Positions 5,397 through 33,416 of a DNA stretch of 33,416 bases are shown here, in pieces (the stretch's first letter is position 1; each line of letters starts with the position of its first letter). The position numbers were made by a program, and so were the translations under genes. Origin of the DNA: an uncultured Pseudomonadota bacterium (GTDB lineage Bacteria; Myxococcota_A; UBA9042; CAIXZC01); the NCBI GenBank assembly GCA_937884235.1, contig CALGBT010000575.1, positions 1-33,416 on the forward strand. Reading direction: 5' to 3'. The notes beneath the pieces were generated by a model. It saw only the letters and a program-made list of their open reading frames with translations. It was not told where the DNA came from and made no database searches.

Positions 5397-8300
5397 CTAT
5401 GGAATCGATACCGTGTTGGCCTTCTTGCCAGGCAGGCCGTTGGTGCCGTTGACCGGATAGCCCTGTGATGTGAGCCCGCCGTTTCCGCCCTGGCCCGGTG
5501 CGCCCAGAGCGTAGGTCGTGGCCTGCACTTTTGGTGCCTTCGCCTTATCGTAGAGAAGCGCGGCACTGTTGCCTCCGGAGCCGCCTCCGCCGACTCCCCC
5601 GTTGCCGCCGTCGCCACCCGCACCACCGAAACCTCCCTTCCCAGACCCCGCGTAACCTTTGCCGCCCAATCCACCGGCTCCACCCTGGCCTCCTTTGCCG
5701 GCCTTACCGCCGTTGCCGCCCTTGCCGCCCTTGGCTGTGGTGAGTTCACAGCCGATGATAGCGATGGGGGATTTGTGGAGAACTATGGCCATGGAACCGC
5801 CGCCAGCTTTGCCTCCTTTGCCTCCTGTGCCGGAGGTTCCGCCAGCCCCGCCGCCGCCCCCGCCGCCCCCCTTGGAGTCACACCACAGGTAGGCGTCGTT
5901 CTTGTGCTTGCCCATGCCGCCGCCACCACCGCCGCAGCCATCGACGCCGTTGCCACCGTCATTGCCGGCGTCCCCAATCCAGCCAGATTTGGTCAGCGCG
6001 CCCTTGGTGAAACCACCCTTGCCCTGACTGCCACCCGGGCCGTCGATGCCGTCGCCGCCATTGCTGCCGTTGTTGCCGTCACCAGCGTAGATGCCGCCGT
6101 CGCCACCCATTTCCTTGCCCCACTTCTTGTAGCAGCACGATGGCTCCCCGACGTCGATTCCGGTCCACGTCACCTTTGCCCCCGGGCTCCAGGGCCCGGC
6201 TGTGGGGATATCGCCGATGCCGTCGCCGCGGCCGCCACAGGTGAACTCCATTCCTAGTGCCCCGGCGGCAAACCCGGGACAGGTGTTGTCGGTGTTGGGG
6301 TTATTGCAGATGGGCGAAGAGCTGCTGAAGCAACCGCTTGTGGCGTTGGCTCCAGCCTTGCCATTCATGCCGTTGACACCGTCCATGCCGTTAGCTCCAT
6401 CAGCGCCGTTACCAGCCTTGATGGCCACCATGGTGAGGCTCAGTCCAGGGCTCTCAGAGGCAAAGAGACCAACTGAACTTTGCCCTGCGGCGATGGCCTT
6501 GGCAGCCTGAATGGTGAGGCGGCCGACGCTGGTTTGACCGATCAACTTGAAGCCCTCCACGGCTGTTGGGCCACCGACTACCAGGCTCTTGGCCGCGGGG
6601 CTGGAAGACCAGTTCTTCGCTGCCATGTAGCCTCCCCAGACATGGACCCCCGGGCGCAGCTTGATGCTTCCGGGATAGGTGCCAGTGTCCACCAGCACAG
6701 AGTCCTTGTACGAGTTGCCGTGCACCGAATCGATGGCCGACTGGATCGTCTTCTTGGGTTTTTGCATGGTGCCCGGATTCGTGTCTGCCCCTTTCGCTAC
6801 TGAAACGAATACCGAGCGCTCGATATTGCCATCGATGCCGTCGCAGTTCTGGTCCACGCCCAGGAGGTCAGGGAGGTCGTCGGCCCCCGGGTTGATGGCC
6901 GAGTAGGCGTCGTTGCAGTCAGCCGCGGCGCTCGGCAGGCAGTAGATACAGCCTGGTGTTATCACGGCATCCGCAGCACAGTAGCCATCCTGGTCGACGT
7001 CATATCCTTCGTCGATCTGCGAGTCACAGTTATCGTCCAGGTTATTGCAGATCTCCGGGGCTCCAGGGTGGACCGTGTAGTTTTTGTCATCGCAATCGAA
7101 GAATCCCTTGGGACAGCTTTTCTCTACAGCATCGCACTGAGCTTCAGTGGCCATGGGAGTGCCCAGGTAACAGTTGGCCACGCTGTCTGGGGGAGCGTTC
7201 ACGCAGTAGCCGTCAGCATCGCCGTCGCAGCCGTCGTCCACCTGCAGGTTGCAGTTCTGGTTGATACCGTCGCAAAGCTCGATCGCACCAGGATGGACGG
7301 ATGCGTCGTCGTCATCGCAATCCACCTCCGGCGAAATGCAGAGGAGGCCGACTCCCCACTTGAGTACCGGGGCATGGCAGTAGCCGTCGCCGTCTTGATC
7401 GCACCCCTCGTCGGGAATCTGGTCACAGTCGTTGTCCAGTCCGTCGCACCATTCCTGGTGGCCCGGATGGATGTTGTCCGAAAGGTCGTTGCAGTCCATT
7501 AGCGGGTATCGACAGACCATGTCCGGGCCGTAGGCCAGCGGTTCCTGGGAGCAGTACCCGTCACCGTCGAAATCGCACTGTTCATCGACCTGTCCGTCGC
7601 AGTTGTTGTCGATGTTGTCGCACAGTTCAGGGGCGGCCAGGTAGATGGCAGGGTTATCGTCATTGCAGTCCAGGCTGTTGTCGACGGCGCCTGGGCCAGG
7701 CTGACAGGCGCACCTGATATTCTGGCTGCCGTAGCCATCGCCGTCGGCATCGACGAAGAAGGCGATGCAGTCGGCGGCCTCGGCCTCATCCACTTCGCCG
7801 TCGCAATCGTTGTCCAGCCCGTCACAGACTTCGGCCTCTGCTGCGGGAGCATTGCACACCGGTATTCCGGACAGGCACTTCTCCACGCCCGGGCATGTGC
7901 CGTTGTTGTTGGTGATCTGACAGGGCTTGTCCGGAATCTCGTCGTCAGCTTTGCCGTTGCAATTGTCGTCCAGTCCGTTGCAGACCTCATCCAGTGGTGG
8001 TGGTGCGTCGCATTTGCCCAGGCCATCTTCGGTGCAGTACCGCTCTCCCACGCACATGCCCTCCGCGTGGTCGACACATGCGGTTGAATGGCCAAAGTTG
8101 GTCTCGGCCCACGCACAATCGCACTCGCCCTCCCAAGCTACGCATCTCTCTTCGTGGCACTGGAAGCCGTGGGGACAGGCTGAATCCTCGTTGCACGAGG
8201 TGGTGCAATAGGCCCCGATCTCTTTCTCCGCCAGGCCGCAGAAGGAAGCATCATCGCCGGGGAAGCGTGCGCAATCGCCAGAGTCATGACAGGGTCGGCA

Positions 8301-8693
8301 ATAGGGCAGGAATTGGCCAATGCAGACGTTGGTGATGCTGTCCCGCTTAGCCCCCACCGCGCGGCAATCATATCCCAGGGGACACTCTTCCACACAGGGG
8401 GTAGCGCAAAAGTAGCCTGAACCTTCGTCCACGCACGGTAGTCCCGCACAGTCGGCGCTGGTCAGGCAGCTCTGGCCGGCATGCTCAGCGGCGGTTGTGA
8501 GATCCCCTTCGTCCCAGTCCTCAAAGGTCAGGCCGGAGTCTGGGGTGCCGCCGGGCTCGTCGGCTAGAAAGGCCGGCAAGTCCGGGTCTGGGTCTGTCCA
8601 CGTATCGAAGGCCACGGGGTCAAAGTTCGCAGGATCGCTGCCGCAGGCGGACAGCAGGGCCAGGAAGAAGATAATGCTTGAGAATTGCTTCAT
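5397..8693 (-). CDS. Large Cys-rich/MopE-repeat/glycine-rich lipoprotein
   Basis: This 1098-residue predicted lipoprotein starts MKQFSSIIFFLALLSAC with Cys17 as the lipidation site. The ATG at 8693 has GGAGG six bases upstream; upstream in-frame starts would destroy the signal peptide. The architecture, in order, is an acidic linker, a Cys-rich region (about 70-230, repeated C-x5-C types such as CLTSADCAGLPC) and six MopE-type motifs of the form E-x-C-D/N-x-x-D/N-x-N/D-C-D/N (about 235-560). A parallel-beta-helix/DUF1565-like segment follows (GTMQKPKKTIQSAID, about 625-700), then a long Gly-rich tail (about 760-1060). MopE motifs are annotated as putative metal-binding; DxDxDG-like acidic loops suggest calcium. 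It is probably surface-exposed. The function is unknown; adhesion or a structural role is an inference. Confidence 0.88.
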   Translation of the reverse strand: MKQFSSIIFFLALLSACGSDPANFDPVAFDTWTDPDPDLPAFLADEPGGTPDSGLTFEDWDEGDLTTAAEHAGQSCLTSADCAGLPCVDEGSGYFCATPCVEECPLGYDCRAVGAKRDSITNVCIGQFLPYCRPCHDSGDCARFPGDDASFCGLAEKEIGAYCTTSCNEDSACPHGFQCHEERCVAWEGECDCAWAETNFGHSTACVDHAEGMCVGERYCTEDGLGKCDAPPPLDEVCNGLDDNCNGKADDEIPDKPCQITNNNGTCPGVEKCLSGIPVCNAPAAEAEVCDGLDNDCDGEVDEAEAADCIAFFVDADGDGYGSQNIRCACQPGPGAVDNSLDCNDDNPAIYLAAPELCDNIDNNCDGQVDEQCDFDGDGYCSQEPLAYGPDMVCRYPLMDCNDLSDNIHPGHQEWCDGLDNDCDQIPDEGCDQDGDGYCHAPVLKWGVGLLCISPEVDCDDDDASVHPGAIELCDGINQNCNLQVDDGCDGDADGYCVNAPPDSVANCYLGTPMATEAQCDAVEKSCPKGFFDCDDKNYTVHPGAPEICNNLDDNCDSQIDEGYDVDQDGYCAADAVITPGCIYCLPSAAADCNDAYSAINPGADDLPDLLGVDQNCDGIDGNIERSVFVSVAKGADTNPGTMQKPKKTIQSAIDSVHGNSYKDSVLVDTGTYPGSIKLRPGVHVWGGYMAAKNWSSSPAAKSLVVGGPTAVEGFKLIGQTSVGRLTIQAAKAIAAGQSSVGLFASESPGLSLTMVAIKAGNGADGANGMDGVNGMNGKAGANATSGCFSSSSPICNNPNTDNTCPGFAAGALGMEFTCGGRGDGIGDIPTAGPWSPGAKVTWTGIDVGEPSCCYKKWGKEMGGDGGIYAGDGNNGSNGGDGIDGPGGSQGKGGFTKGALTKSGWIGDAGNDGGNGVDGCGGGGGGMGKHKNDAYLWCDSKGGGGGGGGAGGTSGTGGKGGKAGGGSMAIVLHKSPIAIIGCELTTAKGGKGGNGGKAGKGGQGGAGGLGGKGYAGSGKGGFGGAGGDGGNGGVGGGGSGGNSAALLYDKAKAPKVQATTYALGAPGQGGNGGLTSQGYPVNGTNGLPGKKANTVSIP
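5510..6415 (-). repeat. Glycine-rich, collagen-like then GGxGG repeat region
   Basis: This is a coding repeat inside the large lipoprotein (about residues 760-1060). It begins with G-x-y triplets such as GADGANGMDGVNGMNGKAG. It has a short Cys-containing interruption and continues as GGNGG, GGKGG and GGAGG runs. On the plus strand the same DNA appears as GCCGCC/ACCGCC-rich sequence. Confidence 0.85.
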
Positions 8694-8923
8694 GGTGCAC
8701 CTCCAGGTTTGTTTGGGCATTGTGCCGTTCCTCACTCCTCACCCTCTTTATCGGGAGGAGCGATACCAAAGACCTGAAATTTCTTGTTTCACCTGTTATT
8801 TTAGTGGGTTACGTTTTTTGGTCTCGGGGAAGTGAATAGTCGTGCGCCCGCCGGCGTCTGTCTGCCCCAGTTGCCAAAGCGCAGCGGCCACCAGCACGGT
8901 CCGCTGAAAACTAGGAGGAAACC
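8694..8923. other. Divergent intergenic region between MopE lipoprotein and beta-barrel gene
   Basis: This 230-base region must hold the promoters of two divergent genes. The stretch 8770-8822 is AT-rich compared with the surroundings and ends in a run of six T. TAAAAT on the minus strand (near 8797-8802) could be a -10 element, but I found no convincing -35 partner for either direction. Confidence 0.4.
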
Positions 8924-17581: not shown

Positions 17582-19381
17582 CTAATTACCGCAGGAAGGT
17601 GCCGGGCCGCCGCGTTCTTCAGCGGCGAGTTGCTTCTTGCAGCCTTCGAAGGTGGGGTTGTGCTGGCAGATGTTCTTCTGCACGGTAGCGGCGTCGATAC
17701 CGGAGAACTGGTGGCGTCCATCAGCAATCCAGGTCGGGGAGCCGGAGATGCCAAGCTGCTTGGCAAGCTTCATGTCGTCGAGGAGCATCTTCGTTCCGTC
17801 GCCCTTGAAGCATTCTTCGATGACCGCAGCATCGATACCGTCGGTGGCGCATGCCTGCCAGTTGGTATCTTTGATATTCTTGTTGCGGCAGAGGATGTAG
17901 GTCATGTACTTCGCGGGGTACTTGGTGATGGCGCAGAGTTCACGGATGTTTTCGTCAACTTCGCTCTGGCCGTGCATGGAGGTAGGCTTGCCGTCCTGCT
18001 CGTCGCCGATGAAGTGGACGGAGAACTTGATTTCGTCGCCAAAGGCGGCGAGGACTTCTTCCATGGCATTGAGAGCTTTCAGGCCGAAGGGGCATTCTGA
18101 CATGACGAAGACTTCGAGCTGTCCTTTGACCTCGGCGCGGCAGAGGAGGTTGTTGGCGCAGGTTTCGTCGTCGCAGTCAACCTTGCCGTTGCCGGTGTCG
18201 TCGACTTTGTTGTCGCAGATCTCGGCGTTGGGGTCGTGCTGGGCACGGCCGGCGAAGACCTTCCAGGTGCCAGTCTTGGAGGGCTTGAGGAAGCGCTGCA
18301 GGCGGGCGTAGCCGTCGCCTTTCTCCACGTCGTTGCCAAAGAGAATGACGGGGAGGAAGGTGATGCCTTCGTCAGCGTAGAGCTTCTTGGCTTCTTCTTC
18401 GGCCCAGTCGAGTTTCCGTATTTTCATGCCGGGGAACATGGAGCCAAAGCTGCTCTGCAGCCGTGCGGTGTCGCAGCTACGGTCGGTGCAGCGCTTGTCT
18501 TCGAGGATGATGGCTTCGAATTCCACGGGCGGCGGAATGTCGGAGCAGGCCTGGGGCTTGGAGCCTTCGGGCAGACCACCGCAGATGGCGCGCATGTAGT
18601 CCGCTTCGCCACGGCCACCACGGTAGGGCTGGTCGTTGAGGAACATGGTGGGGCTGCCACGGGCGCCGGCCTTCTGGGAGAGCTCGTAGGAGGCCTTGAG
18701 CAGGCCCTTGCCTTCTTCGCCTTCGTAGCATTCTTTCAGCTTCGGAATCTCGGCTTCAAAGCCGGCTTCCTTGGCGCATCCTTCCCAGTTACCGGGGATG
18801 GCGCGCATGTTCTTGTTCATGCAGTCGAGGATGCCGAAGTACTTGTAGTTCTCGGCGAGGTGCAGCTGGGCGCACATCTGGATGATGTTGCCCTGGACTT
18901 CTGCTTCACCGTGCATGGAGGTGAGCTGGTCGCCCTGGACGTTGCCGATGTATTCGAGGCGGAAGTCAACATAGTCGCCGACCTTCTTGAGGACTGGGCT
19001 GATGCCATTCATGACCTGGGTACCAAAGGGGCATTGGGACATGACGTGGAAGGTGAACTTGACTTTGGCGCCGGAAGCGTTGGCTTCGGGCTTGGCTTCT
19101 TCGGGCTTGGCTTCAGCAGGCTTGGCCTCTTCGGGCTTGGCTTCTGCAGGCTTGGCTTCTTCGGGTTTGGCTTCTTCCGGTTTGGCCTCAGCAGGCTTGG
19201 CCTCTTCGGGCTTGGCTTCCGCTGGCTTGGCTTCTTCGGGCTTGGCCTCTGCGGGCTTGGCCTCTTCCTTCTTGGCCTCTTCCTTCTTGGCCTCTTCCTT
19301 CTTTCCTTCGTCAGCAGCCTTGGGTTGGCAGGCGACTGCAAAGGCGAGCAGCACGGACAGCACCAACAGTTTCACTCTCAT
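17582..19381 (-). CDS. Exported protein with three thioredoxin-like domains and an EAKP-repeat linker
   Basis: This 599-residue protein has an N-terminal signal, probably of lipoprotein type (LLAFAVAC, Cys18, an atypical lipobox). A Glu/Ala/Lys/Pro repeat spans 26-100. Domain A (about 106-270) begins HVMSQCPFG with Cys117 and has a cis-Pro-like GSPTMFLND near 242-250. Domain B (about 286-375) has CTDRSC (Cys298, Cys303) and FLPVILFG. A MopE-like spacer (388-414, ICDNKVDDTGNG) follows. Domain C (about 422-575) repeats FVMSECPFG with Cys430 and GSPTWIADG. A and C resemble each other and the DsbA/GILT class, but the usual CxxC is replaced by C-P-F-G. It is probably periplasmic; a disulfide role is inferred. 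ATG 19381 has GAGGAG six bases upstream. Confidence 0.87.
   Translation of the reverse strand: MRVKLLVLSVLLAFAVACQPKAADEGKKEEAKKEEAKKEEAKPAEAKPEEAKPAEAKPEEAKPAEAKPEEAKPEEAKPAEAKPEEAKPAEAKPEEAKPEANASGAKVKFTFHVMSQCPFGTQVMNGISPVLKKVGDYVDFRLEYIGNVQGDQLTSMHGEAEVQGNIIQMCAQLHLAENYKYFGILDCMNKNMRAIPGNWEGCAKEAGFEAEIPKLKECYEGEEGKGLLKASYELSQKAGARGSPTMFLNDQPYRGGRGEADYMRAICGGLPEGSKPQACSDIPPPVEFEAIILEDKRCTDRSCDTARLQSSFGSMFPGMKIRKLDWAEEEAKKLYADEGITFLPVILFGNDVEKGDGYARLQRFLKPSKTGTWKVFAGRAQHDPNAEICDNKVDDTGNGKVDCDDETCANNLLCRAEVKGQLEVFVMSECPFGLKALNAMEEVLAAFGDEIKFSVHFIGDEQDGKPTSMHGQSEVDENIRELCAITKYPAKYMTYILCRNKNIKDTNWQACATDGIDAAVIEECFKGDGTKMLLDDMKLAKQLGISGSPTWIADGRHQFSGIDAATVQKNICQHNPTFEGCKKQLAAEERGGPAPSCGN
19082..19306 (-). 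repeat. Coding tandem repeat, EEAKPAEAKP linker
   Basis: About 15-base units (GAGGCCAAGCCG-like, five-residue E-A-K-P-x blocks) repeat across 225 bases and encode residues 26-100 of the triple thioredoxin-fold protein. Third-position differences between units show that it is not a very recent expansion. The encoded linker should be an extended, charged spacer between membrane anchor and domains. Confidence 0.85.
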
Positions 19382-19570: not shown

Positions 19571-20014
19571 ATGCGGATTCTCGTCCTCAACGGTCCGAAC
19601 TTGAACCTACTGGGGGAGAGAGAGCGGGCGCTGTATGGTTCTACGACGCTGGATGGGGTCGAGGCGATGCTCTCTGCTCAAGCATCGCGGCGCTCCGTTG
19701 AGTTGTTGTTTTTCCAAAGCAACCACGAAGGCGCGCTGATCGATCGGCTGCATCAGGCGCGAGGGCAGGTGGACGGAGTTGTTTTTAACCCAGGGGCTTA
19801 TGCACACACCTCTGTTGCACTGTTGGACGCGCTACTGGCCGTGGCTCTGCCGGTGGTCGAAGTGCACGTGACCAATCTGGACCGCCGGGAGGACTTTCGG
19901 CGACGCTCCATCACGGCTGCAGGGGCCCTGGCTCGCATTGATGGCTTTGGCGCAGACGGTTATCGTCTGGCTTTGGATGGGCTGGTCAATTACCTGCAAC
20001 TAGACAAGAGTTGA
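19571..20014 (+). CDS. aroQ: 3-dehydroquinate dehydratase, type II
   Basis: This 147-residue cytoplasmic enzyme of the shikimate pathway dehydrates 3-dehydroquinate to 3-dehydroshikimate. It has the typical type II length and motifs: LNGPNLNLLG at 6-15, catalytic Tyr22 in ALYGSTT, QSNHEG at 49-54, NPGAYAHTS at 73-81 (Asn73, His79), EVHVTN at 97-102 with the catalytic His99, and FRRRSITAAG near 109-118. GAGG lies six bases before the ATG. The gene heads a plus-strand run: the TPR gene follows after nine bases. Its presence at the head of an apparently envelope or motility-related operon is probably incidental co-transcription. Confidence 0.97.
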   Translation: MRILVLNGPNLNLLGERERALYGSTTLDGVEAMLSAQASRRSVELLFFQSNHEGALIDRLHQARGQVDGVVFNPGAYAHTSVALLDALLAVALPVVEVHVTNLDRREDFRRRSITAAGALARIDGFGADGYRLALDGLVNYLQLDKS

Positions 20015-20023
20015 CGGGAGACA

Positions 20024-21334
20024 ATGGCAGGAAAGAAACAGAAGCTGCTGCAGAAGGCTGACTCTTTCGCCCGGGACAAGAAGCTGAAGAAGGCGATCGC
20101 TCTCTACAAACAGGTCATTGAGGACGATGCTGCGGACATTCGGACGCGTTTGCGTCTCTCGGAGTTGCTCTATCAAGCCGGGCGTATGGCTGAAGCCCTC
20201 GATGTTTTGCAGTTTGTCGGCGACTACTACCGGGAGCATGGCTTTCTGCTCAAGAGCGTTGCGGTCTACAAGAAGATGCTGGAGGTGGAGCCGTCGCGTA
20301 CCGACCTGCATGGTACTCTGGCCCAACTCTATTTCCAGCTGGGGATGGCCCCTGACGCCATTCGGCAGTTCAAGGCGCATATCCGGGCATTGCTCAAGCA
20401 GGGCAGAGTCCTCGACAGTCTCTTTGTGGTCCGCAGTATGTTGGAGTTGGATCCTGGCAACGTTTCGGATCGCCTGCGGCTGGCTGAGGGCTTCTCCTTC
20501 CATGAGATGATCGATGAAGCGGCCGTGGAATACCGGCGCGTACTCTCCCTCCTGGAGAAGGCTGACCGACAGTCGGAGTGGGGGCGGGTCGCCATGCGCT
20601 ACCTGCACCACAACCCTGAGGACGATAATATTCGGCGGCGGGTGGTGGAGTTCTTGATGCGGGAAGGGGATTATCACCGCTCGCTCCAGCACCTTTCAGT
20701 CTGCCTGGAGAAAGACCCCCGCGACACCCAGCTTCTGGACATCGCGGCCAATTGCTTCGAGATGCTGGGGCAGCCGGAGAAGGCAATCGTGGCCCTCAAG
20801 AGCATGGTTTCGGTCTTTCGACAGAAGGGGCTCTCCCATGAGGAGGTCAACATTCTGGCCAGAGTATTGGAGCTTGATCCCAAGGATGAACAGGCGCTGC
20901 GTGCATTGGGTGGCGAAGAGCCGGTTCCGGAAGAAGCCGGCGAAGAAGGATTCGTCGAGCTGGAGTGGGATATGCCGGCGGGCCATGGCGACCCCCCCCC
21001 AGTTACTGAGTTCGCAGCGACGGTTTACGAACCGGAGCCCCCCTCTTTCGCTGACGATTGGGCGGATGAGGCAACTATTGTTGAGCCGGTCAGTGAGGAT
21101 CTTTTGCGACAACTGATGCTTTATGCTGACGATGATCAGGTGCCCATGGCGGTGGACGTGCTACGTCTGCAGCGGGCTCTGGATGCTGGTGAGCCCATGT
21201 CACCGGCCGAGTTGGAGGCGGCGGGGGTGACCCTTTCGCCCAACGACCGCGAAGAACTGGAGTTCTTCCTCTCTTCCGGTCTGCGGGACGAAGCTCTGGC
21301 CATCTTGCAGGAACTGCACCTGCGCCTGAACTAG
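20024..21334 (+). CDS. Tetratricopeptide repeat protein
   Basis: This 436-residue soluble protein has no signal peptide. Residues ~1-290 are helical TPR-like units, for example FARDKKLKKAIALYKQVIEDD, LLYQAGRMAEALDVL, LYFQLGMAPDAIRQF and CFEMLGQPEKAIVALKSM. Residues ~295-365 form an acidic linker rich in E, P and D. The C-terminal ~70 residues end with REELEFFLSSGLRDEALAIL, a phrase type familiar from C-terminal TPRs of deltaproteobacterial scaffold proteins. GGGAG precedes the ATG by a few bases. It sits between aroQ (nine bases upstream) and the PilZ gene (14 bases downstream), so it may be a scaffold working with the PilZ protein. Partners are unknown. Confidence 0.9.
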   Translation: MAGKKQKLLQKADSFARDKKLKKAIALYKQVIEDDAADIRTRLRLSELLYQAGRMAEALDVLQFVGDYYREHGFLLKSVAVYKKMLEVEPSRTDLHGTLAQLYFQLGMAPDAIRQFKAHIRALLKQGRVLDSLFVVRSMLELDPGNVSDRLRLAEGFSFHEMIDEAAVEYRRVLSLLEKADRQSEWGRVAMRYLHHNPEDDNIRRRVVEFLMREGDYHRSLQHLSVCLEKDPRDTQLLDIAANCFEMLGQPEKAIVALKSMVSVFRQKGLSHEEVNILARVLELDPKDEQALRALGGEEPVPEEAGEEGFVELEWDMPAGHGDPPPVTEFAATVYEPEPPSFADDWADEATIVEPVSEDLLRQLMLYADDDQVPMAVDVLRLQRALDAGEPMSPAELEAAGVTLSPNDREELEFFLSSGLRDEALAILQELHLRLN

Positions 21335-22233: not shown

Positions 22234-23211
22234 GTGCGAAGCAGAATCTGGTTTGTAGCAGTCCTTCTTGTTTTTTCGCAGCTTGCTGCGCTCTCTGCTC
22301 AGGAGCTGAGCACCGGTCGCCAGCGACTTGTCGCCAACGAGTTGGAGGGGCCTCTTCTGGAAGTCCACTTTCTGGATGTTGGGCAAGGCGATTCAATCTA
22401 TGTCCGTACTCCCGGGAAGAAGCACTACCTGATCGATACCGGCACCCGGTCGGCTCGCAAGCAGATTATTCCCTATCTGCAGTACCTGGACGTCAAGGCC
22501 CTTGATGGTGTTCTGTTGACACACAGTCACCTCGACCATATCGGGGCTCTTTACTACATTGCTGATGCTTTTCCCATCAAGCGTCTCTACTACAGCGGTC
22601 ACGTTCATCCCAGCAGTCATAATCGCAAAACAGTGCAGCGGCTGAAAGACAAGAATGTGGCGTTGCGGCGAGTGCGGGCCGGGGATACCTTCGAATTGGA
22701 AGAGGGGGTCAAGGTTCAGGTGCTCCATCCGGGCAAGGACTGGAATGGCGACGTCGAGGACCCGAACAATATGTCCGTGGTGGTCCGGTTGACCTATGGT
22801 GACATTGATTTTCTCCTCACGGGTGATGCCGAAAAGCAGAGCGAAAAGCAGATCCTCAAGGATAAACTGGAATTGAAGTCGGAGTTTCTCAAGGTCGGTC
22901 ATCACGGTAGCGAAACTTCCAGCACTGAGGAGTTTCTTGATACCGTGGAGCCGCTCTACGCAATAGTTTCATGTGGGGAGGGCAACAAGTTCAACCATCC
23001 CCACGCCTCGACCATGGAGAAACTGCGTGCTCGAGACATAACGATTCTGCGAACAGATCAAAACGGGACCATCGGCATTTACACCAATGGTAAGCGGGTG
23101 ATGATCAAGATTAAGGGCAAGGACTGGCAGCCAGTTTCATTCCTGGTGAGACCACCGGTGAACGGGGCTGGCTGGATTGTAGTTCATAACCGAGGGGGTT
23201 CATATGCGTAG
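22234..23211 (+). CDS. Exported ComEC-type metallo-beta-lactamase-fold hydrolase
   Basis: This 325-residue protein has a signal peptide MRSRIWFVAVLLVFSQLAALSA and a metallo-beta-lactamase domain of the ComEC/Rec2 C-terminal kind. Motifs are LDVGQGDSI near 47-55, THSHLDH at 96-102 (H97, H99, D101, H102), NMSVVVRL, FLLTGD, VGHHGS near 220 and FNHPH near 255. ComEC's membrane channel domain is missing. I prefer GTG 22234 as start, because it gives a clean signal peptide and has GGAG nine bases upstream; an in-frame TTG at 22186 would bury the signal behind 16 residues. It overlaps the HhH gene by eight bases. It is probably a periplasmic or secreted nuclease or phosphodiesterase. Confidence 0.9.
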   Translation: MRSRIWFVAVLLVFSQLAALSAQELSTGRQRLVANELEGPLLEVHFLDVGQGDSIYVRTPGKKHYLIDTGTRSARKQIIPYLQYLDVKALDGVLLTHSHLDHIGALYYIADAFPIKRLYYSGHVHPSSHNRKTVQRLKDKNVALRRVRAGDTFELEEGVKVQVLHPGKDWNGDVEDPNNMSVVVRLTYGDIDFLLTGDAEKQSEKQILKDKLELKSEFLKVGHHGSETSSTEEFLDTVEPLYAIVSCGEGNKFNHPHASTMEKLRARDITILRTDQNGTIGIYTNGKRVMIKIKGKDWQPVSFLVRPPVNGAGWIVVHNRGGSYA

Positions 23212-23926
23212 AAGTGTTCTAACCATCATTGCTGCTTTGAGTTTGCTCCTGGTTGTTCCCGCATTGGCCGGTCCCACCGGCCCTGAGGGGTCACCGGTGC
23301 GCAAGGACATCAACGAGGCTTCGGCCAAGGATCTGATGAAGATCAATGGCATTGGCAAGAAGACCGCAGCCAAGATTATTGAGAAGCGCACGGAACTTGG
23401 CAAGTTCACTTCCATGCACCAGATCAAGACGATCAAGGGATTTGGTCGGGCAACCCTGGTCAAGCTCATCTGTGGTTTTTACGTCAAGGAAGAAGGCGAA
23501 CTTCCCTGCACTGTGGAGAAAGGCCCCGTTGGTCCCACGGAGAAGATCAATATCAACACTGCGGACCTCAAGGAACTCACGAAGATCAAGGGGATGGGCA
23601 AGAAGAAGGGCACCCTGATCATGGAATATCGTCGGGACAAAGGTTGGTTCCGCTCTCCGCACGAGTTGACCAACATCAAGGGCATCGGCAAGAAGACCGT
23701 GGAGAATATGCTCCCCTACGTGGAGGTTCGCCTGGACATCAATCTGGCTCGTGCGGCGCAGTTCGAGGCCCTGGGATTTGCCAACGGTGACACAATTGTT
23801 GAGGCCCGGAAGGCCGCCGGTGGATTCAAGTCTCTGGATGACTTCGCCAAGACTGCCGGTGTAGCTGCCGATGCTTTTGAGAAGGCTAAGGATGTGCTGA
23901 CCTGGACTGAACCTGCAGGGAAGTAA
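23204..23926 (+). CDS. Exported ComEA-like helix-hairpin-helix protein
   Basis: This 240-residue protein has a signal peptide (MRRSVLTIIAALSLLLVVPALA) and three consecutive ComEA-type units. Unit 1 (35-90) has DINEAS, GIGKKTA at 49-55 and GFGRATL at 79-85. Unit 2 (115-172) has ININTAD, GMGKKKG at 130-136 and GIGKKTV at 160-166. Unit 3 (178-232) begins DINLAR but has lost the Gly-rich hairpins. These motifs bind the DNA backbone without sequence specificity; ComEA is the DNA receptor in natural transformation. Cys90 and Cys102 could form a disulfide. The ATG lies inside the end of the MBL gene, after GAGGGGG, so the two are translationally coupled. Confidence 0.93.
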   Translation: MRRSVLTIIAALSLLLVVPALAGPTGPEGSPVRKDINEASAKDLMKINGIGKKTAAKIIEKRTELGKFTSMHQIKTIKGFGRATLVKLICGFYVKEEGELPCTVEKGPVGPTEKININTADLKELTKIKGMGKKKGTLIMEYRRDKGWFRSPHELTNIKGIGKKTVENMLPYVEVRLDINLARAAQFEALGFANGDTIVEARKAAGGFKSLDDFAKTAGVAADAFEKAKDVLTWTEPAGK

Positions 23927-24925: not shown

Positions 24926-24954
24926 TTGACAGCGACTCGCTGCCGGCCTAGGCT
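24926..24954 (+). promoter_or_regulatory. Strong promoter that appears to give a leaderless transcript
   Basis: TTGACA (24926-24931) is a perfect -35. A 17-bp spacer is followed by TAGGCT (24949-24954). A start site seven bases after the -10 falls at 24961 or 24962, that is, at the ATG of the lipoprotein gene. No Shine-Dalgarno sequence precedes that ATG, which agrees with a leaderless mRNA. Confidence 0.6.
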
Positions 24955-24961
24955 TGGCGGC

Positions 24962-26497
24962 ATGTTGCGTTGGTGCGGACCCATTACTTTGGTGGTAATC
25001 GTTCTACTGGCTGGTTGCCAGGGGGAGCGGGGGCAGCAGTATGCCCATCCTGGGGCACGATATGGGCTGGAGGGAATGGCCTTTGCGGTGCAGACGCCGC
25101 CGCTGGAGACGGTGCGGGACGACCTCCTAGGCCTGGTGGTCAACATGGAGGGCGTGGAAGGGGTTCTGGCGCTCATTGAGGGGGCCGTGGGACTCGATTT
25201 TGCCAACCTGGAATTGTTGGCGGAGGCGGGCTTGGATGAATCTATGCCGGGGCTCCTGTTCGGGTATCGGGGCGGTTTGGTCGCGGTTATTGGACTGGGT
25301 GATGTGAGCCGTTTCGAAGATTTTCTGGTGGGACTTGCAAAGCGGGAAGCGTGGAGCTTTCGGCGGACCCCCACTGAAGGAGCCGTGCTCTATGACATGG
25401 CTGGATTTGCCCTCGCGGTACAGGGCAACCTGCTGACTCTCTTCTGGGGGGGGCAGGGCGAGTCCCTGGGCAATTTGGCGGCCCTTCTGCTGGAGCCGAC
25501 ACCGGAGGTCGCGGCCCCACTGCCTGACCATGGCTATGCCATCAGGTTGAACGGTTTTGCCGGGCAACTGGAGGAAGGACTGGCTGAGGAGTTTTCACAG
25601 GTTGGTCCGTTGGCCGGAGTGGCGCGGTCTCTGGCGCGCTATCTGGATGGCTGCGGCGACGTCGCCGGGGGGCTGGACTTTGGCGATCGGGTGGTTTTCA
25701 CCGCCACAGCTGAAGGGTGCCCCACTGGCCTGACTGCGGTGCCCGTGCTGGCCCCTGAGCAGCTGGTTCCTGACGATACTATTGTGCTGGTGCATGCTCG
25801 CCTCCCGGTGGGTTCGTTGTGGCATGCGGTGCCCCCGGTGGCCCGCTACCTGTTGTCTGATTGGTGGCAGGAGATGCCCGGGAAGCGGCCCGAGACCTTG
25901 ACTGATCTGGGGGCGGTGCTGGGGCGGTTTGATGGCGAGTTCGCGGTGGCGTTGCTCGGTCTTGGTGCCGATGTCAATCTCGATTCCTTACTCGGCACCA
26001 AGGACGCGCTGGCTCCGCTCTTTGGAATCCATTGGCAGGTTGTGGCGTTGCTGCGTGAAGGCGAGGTTCTTGACGAGGTCTTTGACCCGGAGGCGATGAA
26101 GCTGTTGTTGCCGCAGTATCAGCCTCGGGGCCTGGGGGCTGGTGACCTGTTGGCAACCGAGTATTGTCGACCCAAGACTGCCCAGGCGGACCAGCGATGT
26201 TTCACGGTCATGCGCCAGGGGCAGACTGTGTCGGTGGTGACGGGGGTTGGCGAGGGGGACCGTTTGCTACGCACTTTGCGGGGGCAGCGTAAGGCGCTGG
26301 CCGAATCCATGTTTGCGGGGCAGCAGCGCGGCCCGCTGACTGTGACCTTGAAGACACGGCGATTAGTGAAGGAGCTTATCAGCAAGGGTTTTCCTCCCTA
26401 CTTCCTGAAGATCCTCTCGTCGATTCTTGAGGTGCGGCTGACAGTGGGGACTGGTGAGGCCGGGACCAGTCTGGCCGCGGAGGTGGTGCTGCGATGA
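24962..26497 (+). CDS. Lipoprotein of unknown function, first gene of an ABC operon
   Basis: This 511-residue lipoprotein has a signal peptide MLRWCGPITLVVIVLLAGC with Cys19 as anchor. The mature part is hydrophobic and rich in Gly, Leu and acidic residues. It has phrases such as LLFGYRGGLVAVIGLGDVSRFEDFLVGLA and FDGEFAVALLGLGADV that suggest repeated alpha/beta units, reminiscent of DUF3352-type proteins, but I cannot assign a family with confidence. There is a Cys pair near CGDV and EGCPTG. The start at ATG 24962 is set by the lipobox and by the promoter directly upstream. The stop codon overlaps the ATPase start (ATGA), so it probably works with the ABC transporter, perhaps as a periplasmic cargo or partner protein. 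Confidence 0.8.
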   Translation: MLRWCGPITLVVIVLLAGCQGERGQQYAHPGARYGLEGMAFAVQTPPLETVRDDLLGLVVNMEGVEGVLALIEGAVGLDFANLELLAEAGLDESMPGLLFGYRGGLVAVIGLGDVSRFEDFLVGLAKREAWSFRRTPTEGAVLYDMAGFALAVQGNLLTLFWGGQGESLGNLAALLLEPTPEVAAPLPDHGYAIRLNGFAGQLEEGLAEEFSQVGPLAGVARSLARYLDGCGDVAGGLDFGDRVVFTATAEGCPTGLTAVPVLAPEQLVPDDTIVLVHARLPVGSLWHAVPPVARYLLSDWWQEMPGKRPETLTDLGAVLGRFDGEFAVALLGLGADVNLDSLLGTKDALAPLFGIHWQVVALLREGEVLDEVFDPEAMKLLLPQYQPRGLGAGDLLATEYCRPKTAQADQRCFTVMRQGQTVSVVTGVGEGDRLLRTLRGQRKALAESMFAGQQRGPLTVTLKTRRLVKELISKGFPPYFLKILSSILEVRLTVGTGEAGTSLAAEVVLR

Positions 26498-27180
26498 TCG
26501 TTGAGCTGCGCCACATCCAGAAGAGCTACGAGGCGGCCTCGGGCATCCCGGTGTTGAAGGACGGGAACGTGGCCATCGAGGAGGGGGAGTTCGTTGCCAT
26601 TCTGGGCAAGAGCGGGTCCGGCAAGACGACGTTGCTCAATATCATCGGCGGTCTTGACCGGGACTTCAAGGGGGAGGCCATCGTGGCGGGCCGCAACCTT
26701 CAGAAGATGGGCGATCGGGCTCTCTCCCGATTTCGCAATGAGACCATTGCCTTCATCTTCCAGACCTTCAATCTGTTGCCCCACCTGACCTGCCGCGAGA
26801 ACGTCGCCTTTCCGGCCTACTTCGCCGGCAATGCCGCGAACCGCGCGGAGGTGGCACAGCGCGCTCAGGAAGCGATGGAACGGGTTGGCATTGAGCACAA
26901 GGCGGCCAGTGTGCCGGGGCGGTTGTCAGGCGGCGAACGCCAGCGGGTGGCCATTGCCCGGGCGATCTTCCAGAAGCCGAGGATTCTGCTTGCCGATGAA
27001 CCCACGGGAAATCTTGACTCGGTCTCTGGTCGGCACGTTCTGGATCTATTTATGGAGTTGAATCGAGAAGATGGCATGACCTGCATGTTGGTGACCCACG
27101 ACGAGCAGCTGGCGAAGATGGCCAGCCGCATCGTCCGCATTGCGGACGGTCAGGTCGTGGGGGAGGAGAGGCCGGCATGA
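26494..27180 (+). CDS. ABC transporter ATP-binding protein, LolD/MacB type
   Basis: This 228-residue cytoplasmic ATPase is of the LolD/MacB/FtsE class. Walker A is GKSGSGKTT at 38-46. The Q-loop is FQTFNLLP, the signature is LSGGERQRVAIARA near 144-157, and Walker B with D-loop is ILLADEPTGNLDS near 164-176. The switch His lies in VTHDE. The TFNLLPHLT phrase and the length are typical of ATPases that pair with FtsX-domain permeases and drive lipoprotein release, antibiotic or peptide export, or other periplasmic work by mechanotransmission. It overlaps the genes on both sides by four bases (ATGA each time), which makes a three-gene operon very likely. Confidence 0.96.
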   Translation: MIVELRHIQKSYEAASGIPVLKDGNVAIEEGEFVAILGKSGSGKTTLLNIIGGLDRDFKGEAIVAGRNLQKMGDRALSRFRNETIAFIFQTFNLLPHLTCRENVAFPAYFAGNAANRAEVAQRAQEAMERVGIEHKAASVPGRLSGGERQRVAIARAIFQKPRILLADEPTGNLDSVSGRHVLDLFMELNREDGMTCMLVTHDEQLAKMASRIVRIADGQVVGEERPA

Positions 27181-29141
27181 AGGCGAGTCGTCTGGTGGCG
27201 GTGGTGCTCCAAAATGTGCGGCGAAATCGCAAGAATTTCGTTTTTTCGGCCATTGGAATCACCGTTGGCGTCTGTGTTTTCTCGTTTTTCACTGCCTTGA
27301 CCATGGGAGTCAGGGTGGAAGTACTCAATCGTATCTACCCCGTCGATTTGATCGAGGTTGAGCCGGCTTCTGTAAACATCGCCGGGACCAAAAGTAGCAT
27401 TGAGAAGGTGCCCTTTCGTGAAGAAGGCGTGACCATGCTCCTCAAGGAGCCGGGAGTCGGCCGCATCTTCCCGAAGCTGCGCTCCCGCTTTCAGGCTACC
27501 TACCGCATGGGGGGGCAGCTCTTCGGGCAGGATGGCATCACCTTTGAGGCCTACTTTGACGGGCTGGACGGTGGTCTCTTGCGGCGTGAACTGAAAGAGG
27601 GCGAAGAGCTGCGGGCCGGGAAGTCCGTGAAGGACAGGTTGGAGGCCCGCTACGGCCGCGAGCACCGCTGTTACGATGCTGAGGACTGTTCTCCTGGAGA
27701 GGAGTGCCGCGAGGGGCTCTGCCAGAAGGTCGAATACTGGTCGCTCTTCCGGGATTGGCGAGAGTATATCCCCTGTCGTGACGAGAGTATCTGCGCGGCC
27801 GGCTACGGTTGCCGCTATGAGCAGTGCCGGGCACTGTGCAAAGCCGATGATGAATGCCTGGCCGAGGAGACCTGTCTCAGGTCGCCCTGTACGAAGGATG
27901 AAGATTGTGGCCCCGGCGGCTGTGTCGCCGGGCGTTGCTCTACCGGGGCTTGTTTCTTTCCGTGTGAAGGCGGTTGTCCGGCCGGTCAGGAGTGCATTCC
28001 TGCGGTTTGTTTGACGGCTGCAGATTGCTCGGACGGTCCTTGTTACGAGGGACAATGCGCGCTGGGTGGAACCTGTACTTTCATGTCCTGTGTGCAGCGC
28101 CGGAAGGAGCGGGAAGTGCTGGGCAATCCGGACATGATTCGAGGCGAGCGACCGGGGCTGTGTGACGACGGCACTCCGGTTCCTGAGGGGGGAACCTGCG
28201 TGCTGGCACGTTGCCCCGTGGGCAGCTACTGTTCTGTCCATACCTACTTCAAGCCCGGCAGTCTGTGGCGGGACAAGCGGGGCGAGGGCCGGTGCGAGCA
28301 ACCGATCCCCGTGGTCTTGAATCCCATTGTCATGGAGATCTTCAACATGGTGCTGGGGTCGACGTTGGACCGGGCACAATTGGGCACCGTGGACACGTTG
28401 TTGGGATATGGTGCCTATGTCACCTTCGGGCATTCCTTCTACAAGGACCCGGTCAAGGACCGCACCCCGGTGCAGAAGCACATGCTGGTGGTGGGTTTCT
28501 CAAACAAAGCACTGGAGGCCGGCGTGACCATGCCCATGGCCTACGTGGACCGGGCCAATTCGCGGTACAAGGGCAAGGGCGCCAGTCAGGAATATGATTC
28601 CATGATCATCCAATTGGCGGCGGCGGAGCATCTGCCGGCGGTGATGGCGATGCTGGACCGCCTGAATATTCAGCTCTCCAGGCGCAGTTCTGAGGCCGAG
28701 AAGTTCAGGACCATTCTCCTCGTGGCCATCGCCATCTTCTTCATCATGGCGTCAATTATTCTGGCCATCGCCGCGGTGAACATCACGCATACCTTCCTGA
28801 TGGTCATCTACGAGCGGAACAAAGAGATCGGCATTCAGCGGGCGCTGGGTGCGACCAAGATGGACATCCGCCTGATCTTCCTGGGCGAATCGGTGCTTAT
28901 CGGTCTGGCCGGAGGGGCCATGGGCAACGGACTGGCCTATGGCTTGAGCCAGATCGCAGACTTCCTGGCTAATCGGTACATCGGAGATTTTCCTTTCCAA
29001 CCTGATACGTTCTTTCATTTTGAACTGTTGTGGGTTTTTGCCTCCACTGGTTTCGCCATCTTCTTCTCGCTGGTTGGTGCCTTCTTCCCCGCCAACCGGG
29101 CGGCGCGCATGGATCCAGCCAGGACTCTGACCGTAGGCTGA
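27177..29141 (+). CDS. FtsX/MacB-type ABC permease with a Cys-rich extracytoplasmic insertion
   Basis: This 654-residue inner-membrane protein has the four-helix MacB/LolCE plan: TM1 at about 19-40, then a large periplasmic region, then TM2 (about 510-537), TM3 (about 565-590) and TM4 (about 615-640). The typical ERNKEIGIQRALGATKMDI and FPANRAARMDPARTL phrases are present. Unusually, the periplasmic region holds a segment at about 160-375 with 30 cysteines. They occur in short spacings such as CYDAEDCSPGEEC and CTKDEDCGPGGC, like the Cys-rich segments of the MopE lipoproteins in this window. Normal FtsX-domain permeases lack this. The reading frame is unbroken and the flanking halves are normal, so it is an insertion rather than an assembly artefact of two genes. 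Confidence 0.92.
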   Translation: MKASRLVAVVLQNVRRNRKNFVFSAIGITVGVCVFSFFTALTMGVRVEVLNRIYPVDLIEVEPASVNIAGTKSSIEKVPFREEGVTMLLKEPGVGRIFPKLRSRFQATYRMGGQLFGQDGITFEAYFDGLDGGLLRRELKEGEELRAGKSVKDRLEARYGREHRCYDAEDCSPGEECREGLCQKVEYWSLFRDWREYIPCRDESICAAGYGCRYEQCRALCKADDECLAEETCLRSPCTKDEDCGPGGCVAGRCSTGACFFPCEGGCPAGQECIPAVCLTAADCSDGPCYEGQCALGGTCTFMSCVQRRKEREVLGNPDMIRGERPGLCDDGTPVPEGGTCVLARCPVGSYCSVHTYFKPGSLWRDKRGEGRCEQPIPVVLNPIVMEIFNMVLGSTLDRAQLGTVDTLLGYGAYVTFGHSFYKDPVKDRTPVQKHMLVVGFSNKALEAGVTMPMAYVDRANSRYKGKGASQEYDSMIIQLAAAEHLPAVMAMLDRLNIQLSRRSSEAEKFRTILLVAIAIFFIMASIILAIAAVNITHTFLMVIYERNKEIGIQRALGATKMDIRLIFLGESVLIGLAGGAMGNGLAYGLSQIADFLANRYIGDFPFQPDTFFHFELLWVFASTGFAIFFSLVGAFFPANRAARMDPARTLTVG

Positions 29142-29313: not shown

Positions 29314-32300
29314 ATGAAGAAAACGTACAAGCTTTGGCAGATCCTAGCGCTGGGTATGGCCGTCGCATCTCTGGCCTGTTCCGGGATAATCCCCGGCGAC
29401 GACGCGGTTGAACCGACTGATGTGGTCACCCCTCAGGATGTACCGGATGATCAGGGAACCAGTCACACCTTCGATCTAATGCCTGTTGATACTTTCAGCA
29501 AGGACGTCGTTGAAGATCTGACGGATGTCTTCATTCTGGATACCTACCTGCCGGACGTGCCGGTCCTTGAAGATGCCTTCCAATGGGACTGGCTACAAGA
29601 TTGTGACGTCCCCTACCTGGACCCTCTGGATGTTGAGGATACGTATGGGTGGGATTGGCAGATGGACTGTGACGTGCCCTACCTCAACGGTCCCTATCTC
29701 AACGATGTCAAAGGCTGGTACTGGGACGGCCATGGCGAGCCGCCCGAGCCACCTTGCAAATGGCAGGGGCCTTGCGCTTGTGATACCGACGAGGATTGTG
29801 TGCCCGGTTGGCAGTGTGAGCATCTGCCGACTCCCCCCTTCATTCCCAATGCCTGGGTCTGTGTCTACTTCGTGGATACCATGTGCATGCCGTGCAACGA
29901 GGATTCTGACTGCGTCAACAGCTTCGAGATCGAAGTGGGGCAGTGCCGCGACCTGGGCGGTCCAGGCAAATCCTGCGTCGTGAGTTGCGACGAGGACGAG
30001 GATTGTCCGCTGACTTCGGCATGCGTGGAAGACCCGCTTAACGAGGGTCAGACCATCTGCATGCCGCAGGATGAGTGCTGGTGTTCGAATCTGGCCAAGG
30101 AGTTTGGTTCCTGGAGTCTGTGCGCTGGCGAGTTGCCCGCCGACGGCTGCTCCGAGATTGTGGAGTGCACTGAGGATGGTCTTAGCGATTGCTATCAACC
30201 GGACCTTTCCGCCGAGGTTTGTGACGGCTTGGACAACGATTGTGACGGCCAGATTGACGAAGCGGGAGCCCTGGAATGTCAGGCCTGGTTTGCCGATGGA
30301 GACGTGGACGGGTATGGCGGGAATGAGATTGCCTGCCTTTGTGACGGCGCTGATGGTTACGTTCCGGCGGGCGGCGATTGCGACGACGAGAACGACCAAG
30401 TCTATCCTGGTGCAGAGGAAGATTGCAACGGGCTGGATGACGACTGTGATGGTGCGGCCGACGAGGACTTTGAGGATTTGGACCAGGACGGCGTAGCGGA
30501 TTGCGTCGACGATGACATCGACGGCGACGGCATCCCCAATGATGAAGCCCCGTGTCCCTTCGATGCTGAGTTTGGCCTGGGCGCACCGGATACTGACGGG
30601 GACGGTATCGCTGATTGCCTTGACCCCGACGACGACAACGACGGTTTTGGCGACGAGATTGATTGCGATCCCCTCAATGGCGACATCTTCCCCGAGGCCG
30701 GGGAAGTGTGCGACGGCGTTGATAATGACTGCGACGGTGACGTTGATGAAGAGGGAGCCGAGCTGTGCTTGCCCTATTATCCTGACGGCGACAACGATGG
30801 TTTCGGCATCGGTCTGGACAGCCCCTGTCTCTGCGCACCGGATTGGCCGTACACGGCTCCGGTCAATGGCGATTGCAATGACTCTGACCCCAAGGTGAAC
30901 CCCGAAGCTACCGAGACCTGCGATGGAGTTGACAACGACTGCGACGGTATTGTGGATCAGGAGGACACGCAGGGTTGTACCAACTGGTTCATCGATGAGG
31001 ACAGTGACGGTCTGGGTGGTGACGAATCCAAGTGCCTTTGCGGTCCCAGTCACCCCTACAAGACGAAGGTCGCGGGCGACTGTGATGACAGTGACCCCGA
31101 CGTCAACGTGTTGGCTGCGGAGGTCTGCAACGGCAAGGATGATAACTGTGACGGTGGGGTGGACGAGGCTGGTGCCGTGGGCTGCCAGCAGTACAAGATG
31201 GACAAGGACGGCGATGGCTGGGGCGTGAGCTTCCCCATCAAGTGTCTCTGTGAACCGACCGCCCCCTTCACTGCGACCCAGTCTGGCGACTGTGATGACA
31301 GTGACGGTGACGTCAATCCGGACGCCACCGAAGTCTGTAACGGTAAGGATGACGATTGTGACTTCGCCACCGACGAGGCCGGTGCTGAGGGTTGCAAGAT
31401 CTACTTCCTTGATGGAGACAAGGATGGCTATGGAACCGAGGCCATGTTCAAGTGCGTTTGCGGTCCAAAGGGATACTACTCGAGCGAGAATGCGCTTGAC
31501 TGCGACGACAATAGTGCTGCGGTTAATCCGGATGGCATAGAAGTTTGTGATGGCGTCGACAATGACTGCAATGGACTGCTGGACATGTTCCCAGACAAGC
31601 CCTGCTATGCGTTTGGTAGCGGTATTGAGTGCAAGGGCATGTTGATGTGTGACAATGGCGGCATGAAGTGCAGTGCCGAAGACCCCGGCGACGAGACCTG
31701 CGATGGCCTCGATAACGACTGTAATGGACTCATCGATGATGGCCCCGATGGCGGCGAATTGAACGGTTCCTGTTACACCGGTTCCTTCGGCACCCAGGGT
31801 GTAGGGCTGTGCGCAGACGGACACCGGGTCTGTGGTAATGGTGTCTGGGGTGTATGCGAGGACCAGGTTCTCCCCACCACTGAATTGTGCGATGGACTGG
31901 ACAATGACTGCGATGGCTTTGACGACGATGGATTTGTCATCAACGAAGGCTGTGTCAGCGGTCTGGGCCTTTGCGCTACTCCGGGTATGTACATCTGTGC
32001 CGAAGATGGCCTGGATGTGCTCTGTGAGACCTTGCCCCTGCCGGAGCCCCAGGAGGAACTCTGCGATGGACTGGACAATGACTGCGATGGCGTGGTCGAC
32101 GAGGAGTTCCTTGATTCCGATTTGGACGGGCAGGCCGATTGCACGGACAAGGACGATGACAATGATGGTATCGCCGACAAGTATGACAACTGCGTCCTGA
32201 CCCCCAACCCGCTCCAGCTGGACTTTGATGGTGATGGCTTGGGCGACAAATGTGACGACGACGATGACAATGATGGCACTGCCGATGGTGACGACTGCGC

Positions 32301-33416
32301 GCCCAAGAATGGCAATGTCTTCCCGGGGGCAGAGGAAGTCTGCAACGGAATCGACGACAACTGCTCTGGTGCAAAGGACGAAGGCTTCCCGGATACTGAC
32401 CTTGATGGAATCAGCGACTGCGAAGACCTCGACGATGACGGTGACGGTGTTCCAGACAAGGACGACAACTGTCCGCTGGTGCCCAATTTTACGCAATCTG
32501 ACTTCGATGCCGATGGCATGGGCGATGATTGTGACGCAGACGATGACAACGACGGCTCGCTGGATGTGGATGACTGTAAGCCGCTGAATCCCGCGGTCTA
32601 TCCCGGAGCTCAGGAACTTTGCGATGGCCTGGACAACGATTGCAACAAGATCATCGATGATCCGTGGCCCGATACTGATGGCGATGGCACCCATGACTGT
32701 GCGGATGTCGATGACGACAACGACGGAGTTATCGATGCTGTCGACAACTGTCCGCTGATCAAGAATGCCGACCAGGGCGATGCCGACGGCGACAAGATTG
32801 GCAATGCCTGCGAAGACGATGACGATGACGATGGCATACTTGACGGTGCGGACAACTGTCCGCTGGATGCCAACCCCGGTCAGGCTGACCAGGATGGCGA
32901 CGGCATTGGTGATGCCTGCGATGCTGATCTTGACGGTGATGGCGTGAACAATCCCGCGGATACCTGTCCGCTGCTGCCCAACCCGCAGCAAACTGACACT
33001 GACCAGGATGGTGCTGGCGATGCCTGCGATGACGACGACGACAACGACGGAATCGCTGACGGTGCGGACAATTGTCCGCTTGTGGCCAATGCGGATCAGG
33101 ATGACCTGGACGGAGATGGCATTGGCAATGGGTGCGATCCGGACATGGATGGCGACGGTGTGCAGAACAAGGACGATAACTGCCCCGGCATCGTCAATCC
33201 TGCCCAGGAGGACTCGGATGGCGACGGCAAGGGCAATGCCTGCGTCGGGGACGATGATGGCGATGGCATCAAGGACGAAGCTGACAACTGCCCCGATGAC
33301 TACAACCCGGGCCAGGAGAATGCTGACAACGATTTCCCCGGCAATGTTTGCGATCCGGACGCCGACAACGACACGGTCCCAGACGTCTCGGACAACTGCC
33401 CCTACACGGCCAACCC
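29314..33416 (+). CDS. Giant MopE/thrombospondin type 3 repeat lipoprotein, C-terminus beyond the window
   Basis: At least 1367 residues are visible, and the frame is open at the window end. The start ATG 29314 has GAGG seven bases upstream. The signal peptide ends in the lipobox SLAC (Cys20). An acidic Asp/Val/Pro-rich linker with repeated DVPYL follows (about 22-140), then a Cys-rich region (about 145-290). Twelve MopE-type motifs such as EVCDGLDNDCDG lie at about 298-1105. From about 949 there are nine thrombospondin type 3 units ending in DNCP-like motifs, for example DGDGIGDACD and ADNCPL. TSP3 units bind calcium cooperatively in characterised proteins, while the MopE motif is labelled putative metal-binding. 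It is probably a long calcium-stiffened surface rod, by inference. Confidence 0.92.
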   Translation, partial: MKKTYKLWQILALGMAVASLACSGIIPGDDAVEPTDVVTPQDVPDDQGTSHTFDLMPVDTFSKDVVEDLTDVFILDTYLPDVPVLEDAFQWDWLQDCDVPYLDPLDVEDTYGWDWQMDCDVPYLNGPYLNDVKGWYWDGHGEPPEPPCKWQGPCACDTDEDCVPGWQCEHLPTPPFIPNAWVCVYFVDTMCMPCNEDSDCVNSFEIEVGQCRDLGGPGKSCVVSCDEDEDCPLTSACVEDPLNEGQTICMPQDECWCSNLAKEFGSWSLCAGELPADGCSEIVECTEDGLSDCYQPDLSAEVCDGLDNDCDGQIDEAGALECQAWFADGDVDGYGGNEIACLCDGADGYVPAGGDCDDENDQVYPGAEEDCNGLDDDCDGAADEDFEDLDQDGVADCVDDDIDGDGIPNDEAPCPFDAEFGLGAPDTDGDGIADCLDPDDDNDGFGDEIDCDPLNGDIFPEAGEVCDGVDNDCDGDVDEEGAELCLPYYPDGDNDGFGIGLDSPCLCAPDWPYTAPVNGDCNDSDPKVNPEATETCDGVDNDCDGIVDQEDTQGCTNWFIDEDSDGLGGDESKCLCGPSHPYKTKVAGDCDDSDPDVNVLAAEVCNGKDDNCDGGVDEAGAVGCQQYKMDKDGDGWGVSFPIKCLCEPTAPFTATQSGDCDDSDGDVNPDATEVCNGKDDDCDFATDEAGAEGCKIYFLDGDKDGYGTEAMFKCVCGPKGYYSSENALDCDDNSAAVNPDGIEVCDGVDNDCNGLLDMFPDKPCYAFGSGIECKGMLMCDNGGMKCSAEDPGDETCDGLDNDCNGLIDDGPDGGELNGSCYTGSFGTQGVGLCADGHRVCGNGVWGVCEDQVLPTTELCDGLDNDCDGFDDDGFVINEGCVSGLGLCATPGMYICAEDGLDVLCETLPLPEPQEELCDGLDNDCDGVVDEEFLDSDLDGQADCTDKDDDNDGIADKYDNCVLTPNPLQLDFDGDGLGDKCDDDDDNDGTADGDDCAPKNGNVFPGAEEVCNGIDDNCSGAKDEGFPDTDLDGISDCEDLDDDGDGVPDKDDNCPLVPNFTQSDFDADGMGDDCDADDDNDGSLDVDDCKPLNPAVYPGAQELCDGLDNDCNKIIDDPWPDTDGDGTHDCADVDDDNDGVIDAVDNCPLIKNADQGDADGDKIGNACEDDDDDDGILDGADNCPLDANPGQADQDGDGIGDACDADLDGDGVNNPADTCPLLPNPQQTDTDQDGAGDACDDDDDNDGIADGADNCPLVANADQDDLDGDGIGNGCDPDMDGDGVQNKDDNCPGIVNPAQEDSDGDGKGNACVGDDDGDGIKDEADNCPDDYNPGQENADNDFPGNVCDPDADNDTVPDVSDNCPYTAN
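30205..33416 (+). repeat. Coding repeats: 12 MopE motifs passing into 9 TSP3 units
   Basis: The DNA is a mosaic of GAC, GAT, AAC, TGC and GGC codons. MopE units are spaced about 60-75 residues apart at first. TSP3 units appear from about 32160, at first interleaved with MopE units 11 and 12 and then alone, about 40 residues apart. Because Asp codons reverse-complement to Val/Ile codons, the opposite strand is also free of stop codons for over 3 kb. Confidence 0.88.

Follow-up and report, generated by a model that had tools for sequence, protein, structure and literature searches.

The nuclease domain at the C-terminus of ComEC is Mn-dependent (PMC8579336), and joining the helix-hairpin-helix (HhH) domain of ComEA to it raises its activity by increasing the local substrate concentration (PMC12455585). 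In DNaseTA, an HhH domain keeps the DNase active in high salt, and fusions of a metallo-beta-lactamase (MBL) domain with HhH units, described in Bacillales in 2016, were proposed to be nucleases that act like DNaseTA (PMC4777378). In the open-access literature that we searched, we found no account of an MBL and an HhH protein encoded as a split pair, or of the spread of such a pair in the phylum studied here. The fusions and the proposal that they are nucleases are already known (PMC4777378); what appears to be new is the split pair and its distribution through the phylum.

The window, that is, the whole stretch of 33,416 nt that was analyzed, is one entire contig of a metagenome-assembled genome (MAG; G000 below) of 5.57 Mb in 958 contigs, which is 87% complete. 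On its forward strand lies a gene for a 325-aa ComEC-type MBL (22234..23211), which starts with a GTG at 22234, approximately 12 nt downstream of an AGGAG, and stops with a TAG at 23209-23211. It is followed by a gene for a 240-aa protein with three ComEA-type (HhH)2 units (23204..23926; ATG at 23204, stop at 23924-23926). The two reading frames overlap by 8 nt (23204..23211), and similar overlaps of 8 nt and about 11 nt are found in two members of the same family, G003 and G001, respectively; this arrangement probably couples the translation of the two genes. By eye, Sec-type signal sequences are present at the N-termini of both the MBL and the HhH protein (MRSRIWFVAVLLVFSQLAALSAQ and MRRSVLTIIAALSLLLVVPALAG, respectively), the former encoded by 22234..22308 (end approximate), and both proteins are therefore predicted to be exported. 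A preliminary description of this DNA had reported two overlapping genes, each with a signal peptide, and this layout was borne out.

Lactamase_B (1.6e-25) is the sole Pfam domain of the MBL protein; the competence channel domain (PF03772) is absent from it. When compared with the NCBIfam ComEC/Rec2 model (TIGR00361), the protein aligned only to C-terminal profile positions 438-663 (E 9.8e-51), with a score of 172.7 bits that falls under the family cut-off of 190.05. For its predicted model (pLDDT 88.7) the best match in the PDB was the ComEC nuclease domain 9ic4 (E 2e-26; TM 0.90 when normalised to the target, with 30% identity across 264 aligned columns), with the phosphorylcholine esterase Pce well behind in second place and other MBLs following; a profile search also put the ComEC nuclease domain first. 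By sequence and by predicted structure, the protein thus groups with the ComEC nuclease domain and not with lactonases or glyoxalases, in agreement with its initial identification as the MBL part of ComEC without the membrane channel. Its metal ligands are predicted to be D68, H97-x-H99-x-D101-H102, D198 and H223, alongside S226 of an HHGS motif. Among 62 aligned MBL sequences, H97, D101, H102, D198 and H223 are invariant, D68, H99 and S226 are conserved in over 90%, and the ComEC-like asparagine N178 is also one of the conserved active-site positions. The fold, most metal ligands, the HHGS serine and the asparagine before motif IV are shared with the ComEC C-terminal nuclease domain (9ic4; PMC8579336, PMC12455585), as is a location outside the cytoplasmic membrane, which for the window MBL is predicted. 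Unlike the ComEC domain, the window MBL has no channel or OB fold, carries its own signal peptide and leaves the putative DNA-binding role to a separate HhH protein. It also differs in motif II, which reads HxHxDH rather than the HxDxDH of the assayed ComEC domains: in the alignment with the assayed ComEC protein (PMC12455585), D101 pairs with D602, its proposed general base, and S226 with S728, whereas H99 occupies the place of an aspartate (D600). The metal and the substrate of the MBL could accordingly differ from those of the assayed ComEC. The motif does not serve as a marker to tell stand-alone MBLs from ComEC, since both forms occur in both groups and many ComEC-length proteins have the HxH form. 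The same genome encodes another MBL of this type (locus L051, 7079-7885, on contig C848), which begins with a lipobox-like sequence; the contig end cuts it off, so that any HhH neighbor would lie beyond the contig.

The HhH protein matched Pfam HHH_3 in three stretches (5.7e-45) and the NCBIfam ComEA model TIGR01259 at 1.4e-37, under its cut-off, and the best fold match of its predicted model was ComEA (8dss). With ComEA and the comEA-comEC operon it shares the (HhH)2 units, (predicted) export and an adjoining ComEC-type domain; it differs from ComEA in having three units and no ComEA oligomerisation domain, and from the operon in that the gene order is reversed and no channel gene is attached. 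The mature protein has a pI of about 9.5. The GhG hairpins of ComEA-type (HhH)2 are intact in unit 1 (23303..23488), which is strongly basic with a net charge of +9, and in unit 2 (23540..23728), which is basic with a net charge of +6. In unit 3 (23729..23908), which is slightly acidic, the sequence GFAN stands in place of a GxG hairpin. The preliminary description had counted two intact units and one decayed unit; the first two are indeed intact, but the third is not decaying, since it is folded with an AlphaFold pLDDT above 90 and its altered form is conserved, the GFxN variant being kept in G001, G003 (two copies), G009 and an HhH paralogue in the same genome as the window. By pattern search, 39 of 45 multi-unit HhH proteins contain a Cys pair, which in most families lies in the last unit and in the window's family has its own position after unit 1; these pairs probably form disulphides, consistent with export, and some relatives have lipobox-like N-termini. 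Sequence-search matches of the HhH protein included the HhH region of EEPD1, a protein named for its endonuclease/exonuclease/phosphatase domain. The paralogue mentioned above (locus L052, 3343-4950, on contig C695) is a second exported three-unit HhH protein, encoded directly upstream of an Exo_endo_phos gene whose product appears to be secreted and lipoprotein-like, with a DNase I fold. Homologues of the latter in seven other genomes have no HhH, either fused or within approximately 1.5 kb, so this arrangement is a single case and not a second general pairing.

To what extent the MBL and the HhH protein belong together was read from their relatives. A phylum-wide search of 379 genomes gave 148 genomes above a strict score, a count that includes many full-length ComEC proteins, and the loci that were read were 80 of the best stand-alone MBL loci together with 11 from the window's class. 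In 33 of these 91 loci the MBL is fused to HhH units, and a same-strand HhH gene lies downstream in 53, of which 15 also have the fusion. Six loci were too near a contig edge to score; among the remaining 85, HhH linkage is found in 71 (33 fused, 38 with a downstream gene only) and the other 14, although of this MBL type, lack an HhH neighbor, but because the ranking profile was built mostly from HhH-linked members, the resulting 84% is an upper estimate and not an unbiased rate. No HhH match was found at any of 41 ComEC-type control loci from the same class as the window (147 kb, with overlap between some of them), and the contrast in HhH linkage between the MBL loci and these controls is not in doubt. 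A scan across phyla gave HhH matches at 2 of 80 loci, one being a member of the phylum found again. A scan of contigs with a single peptide pattern, judged from the matches listed, has little to say on the frequency of HhH linkage in other phyla. Within the family, G001 and G003 carry the pair with overlapping frames and in G002 it is interrupted by a contig end; in more distant relatives, the two genes are adjacent (G009) or form one open frame (G005, G011 and G022). The pair is thus kept far beyond close relatives, often as one polypeptide, as a module spread through the phylum, which appears to be Myxococcota, since a locus named 'Myxococcales bacterium' nests among its members in the tree described below. 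The Bacillales lactamase-beta-H3TH fusions (PMC4777378) likewise combine an MBL with ComEA-type (HhH)2, but in the window the two parts are on two chains encoded by overlapping genes (adjacent or fused in relatives), there are two to three HhH units, and the phylum is another. DNaseTA of Thioalkalivibrio (a DNase I fold plus HhH; PMC4777378, PMC4486849) has in common with the pair a nuclease aided by a ComEA-derived HhH, which is here a prediction, yet it is a single chain and its catalytic fold is unrelated to that of the window MBL. Since the two proteins are encoded side by side or fused in relatives across the phylum, they probably act jointly, degrading DNA outside the cytoplasm. From these sequence comparisons and predicted structures, we put at roughly 70% the probability that the pair is a DNase, secreted or periplasmic, in which the HhH protein holds the DNA.

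Upstream of the pair, on the same strand, are aroQ, encoding a type II dehydroquinase (19571..20014), a gene for a TPR protein with an N-terminal resemblance to SgmX (20024..21334) and a gene for a PilZ protein (PF07238; 21349..22170) in which, by eye, the RxxxR and NxSxxG motifs are kept. The PilZ and TPR genes noted at the outset were both recovered by Pfam. The suggestion that c-di-GMP regulation through PilZ and a TPR scaffold are part of the module was not supported: in the flanks read at the 91 loci, a PilZ gene accompanies the pair in G000, G001 and G003 only, and aroQ and TPR are beside it only in the family (for TPR, in G001, G002 and G003 besides the window) and in G005 (both) and G009 (TPR), which rules out PilZ or TPR as module components beyond the family and these two genomes. 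With PilZ beside the pair in no family but that of the window, c-di-GMP control does not belong to the conserved module and is family-specific at most. Further along the window, an FtsX-type permease (27177-29141), whose periplasmic part has by eye a long Cys-rich stretch, adjoins an ABC ATPase (26494-27180) and a 523-aa protein without a Pfam match (24926-26497); this neighborhood is similar in G001 and partial in G003. On the reverse strand are a lipoprotein-like protein in which two GILT/DsbA-like thioredoxin-fold domains are combined with a long EEAKPAEAKP repeat (17582-19381) and, far from the pair, an RNase J (MBL plus beta-CASP), which is another nuclease of the MBL fold (544-2202). Two very large proteins (5397-8735 on the reverse strand and 29314-33414 on the forward strand) contain Cu-binding MopE-type motifs, and one of them also has thrombospondin type 3 repeats.

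The relationship to ComEC itself was considered with a quick tree of 114 rows, in which deep forks are weakly supported and the order of HhH gains is not resolved. The window MBL falls in a clade of its family (98*) that lies with other stand-alone MBLs, away from most of the ComEC domains found in its class; with the reservation that some deep forks are weak, this placement disfavors the idea that it arose by decay of a ComEC of the host itself. The HhH-linked label changes 12 times on the tree, at least 7 of these on well-supported branches, and we conclude that gain or loss of the linkage took place on several occasions. The ComEC channel domain is present in 342 of the 379 genomes of the phylum. 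Most module genomes retain a full ComEC, and the module is thus usually present in addition to it; the channel is missing in 14 of 86 module genomes and in 23 of 293 others by hand tally, a difference (Fisher p 0.036) that is uncorrected for completeness or relatedness and is not relied on. The preliminary view of an MBL freed from the channel is correct in that the protein stands alone and too simple in that it groups with stand-alone MBLs in genomes most of which keep ComEC. Of the four genomes of the window's family, three show no sign of the ComEC channel: neither PF03772 nor DUF4131 was found in the fragmented draft MAGs G000, G001 and G003, and both are present in G002. At completeness values of 87, 78 and 94%, respectively, these absences suggest loss of the channel. 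It is conceivable, if doubtful, that the family lost the ComEC channel and kept its nuclease chemistry in the form of two exported proteins that together destroy DNA in the envelope, for feeding or for the exclusion of foreign DNA.

These observations also bear on whether the pair could act in natural transformation, with the HhH protein in the role of ComEA, drawing DNA into the periplasm as a ratchet, and the MBL trimming the non-transported strand beside ComEC. The resemblance of the parts to ComEA and the ComEC C-terminal domain, and the channel domain in most module genomes, are as this would predict; nevertheless we consider it unlikely, given that no channel domain or DUF4131 was found in three pair-carrying (though fragmented) MAGs, that most ComEC proteins of the class already include their own MBL domain, and that the order MBL then HhH is unlike that of comEA-comEC. 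A DNase acting outside the cytoplasm is the reading we prefer, and the ComEC-nuclease grouping of the MBL together with the wide and often fused occurrence of the pair agrees with the exported DNA-processing function first proposed, an activity that is predicted. In this model, both proteins would be exported via the Sec pathway, and the MBL would cut DNA as a two-metal phosphodiesterase of the ComEC nuclease type, as its homology and conserved active site suggest. The HhH partner would tether DNA by its two basic ComEA-type units and so bring more substrate to the enzyme. For unit 3, binding to the MBL or to some other partner may be the role instead. A point against the model is that HhH folds can also serve protein contacts (GspK, PsbU). 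Overlapping frames would keep the two proteins in step, a role taken in many relatives by a single chain.

Alternatively, the MBL might be exported to hydrolyse a phosphoester other than DNA, with the HhH protein as its structural or adhesive anchor. Pce as second-best fold match points in this direction, HhH proteins can bind fibronectin (PMC2601033), and some relatives have another C-terminal domain replacing the HhH, such as the Ada-like metal-binding tail seen by eye in G032. We regard this alternative as quite improbable, because the ComEC nuclease match is far stronger and because the basic HhH hairpins and the repeated fusion to HhH indicate DNA. A periplasmic barrier to incoming phage or plasmid DNA, serving defence or preventing transformation, is very improbable: ComEC is undetected in three of the four family genomes and the MBL has weak similarity to the MBL parts of NCBIfam defence models, but at scores far under cut-off (AVAST Avs1a, 49.9 of 420 bits; 6A-MBL, 23 of 220 bits), and the locus lies in conserved synteny within the family among ordinary neighbors (aroQ, TPR, CAAX protease), with no defence genes seen around the pair.

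The most likely use of such an extracytoplasmic DNase would be the breakdown of periplasmic or extracellular DNA, as a nutrient or for clearance, working besides ComEC and not through it. The pair supplies soluble, separable parts with which to study how DNA is fed to a ComEC-type nuclease. If it is a nuclease, the laboratory-made fusion of ComEA to the ComEC nuclease (PMC12455585) would have a natural counterpart across a phylum, and a common class of exported MBLs whose name comes from competence would acquire a role separate from DNA import. In the window's family, the module may be the only ComEC-type nuclease left.
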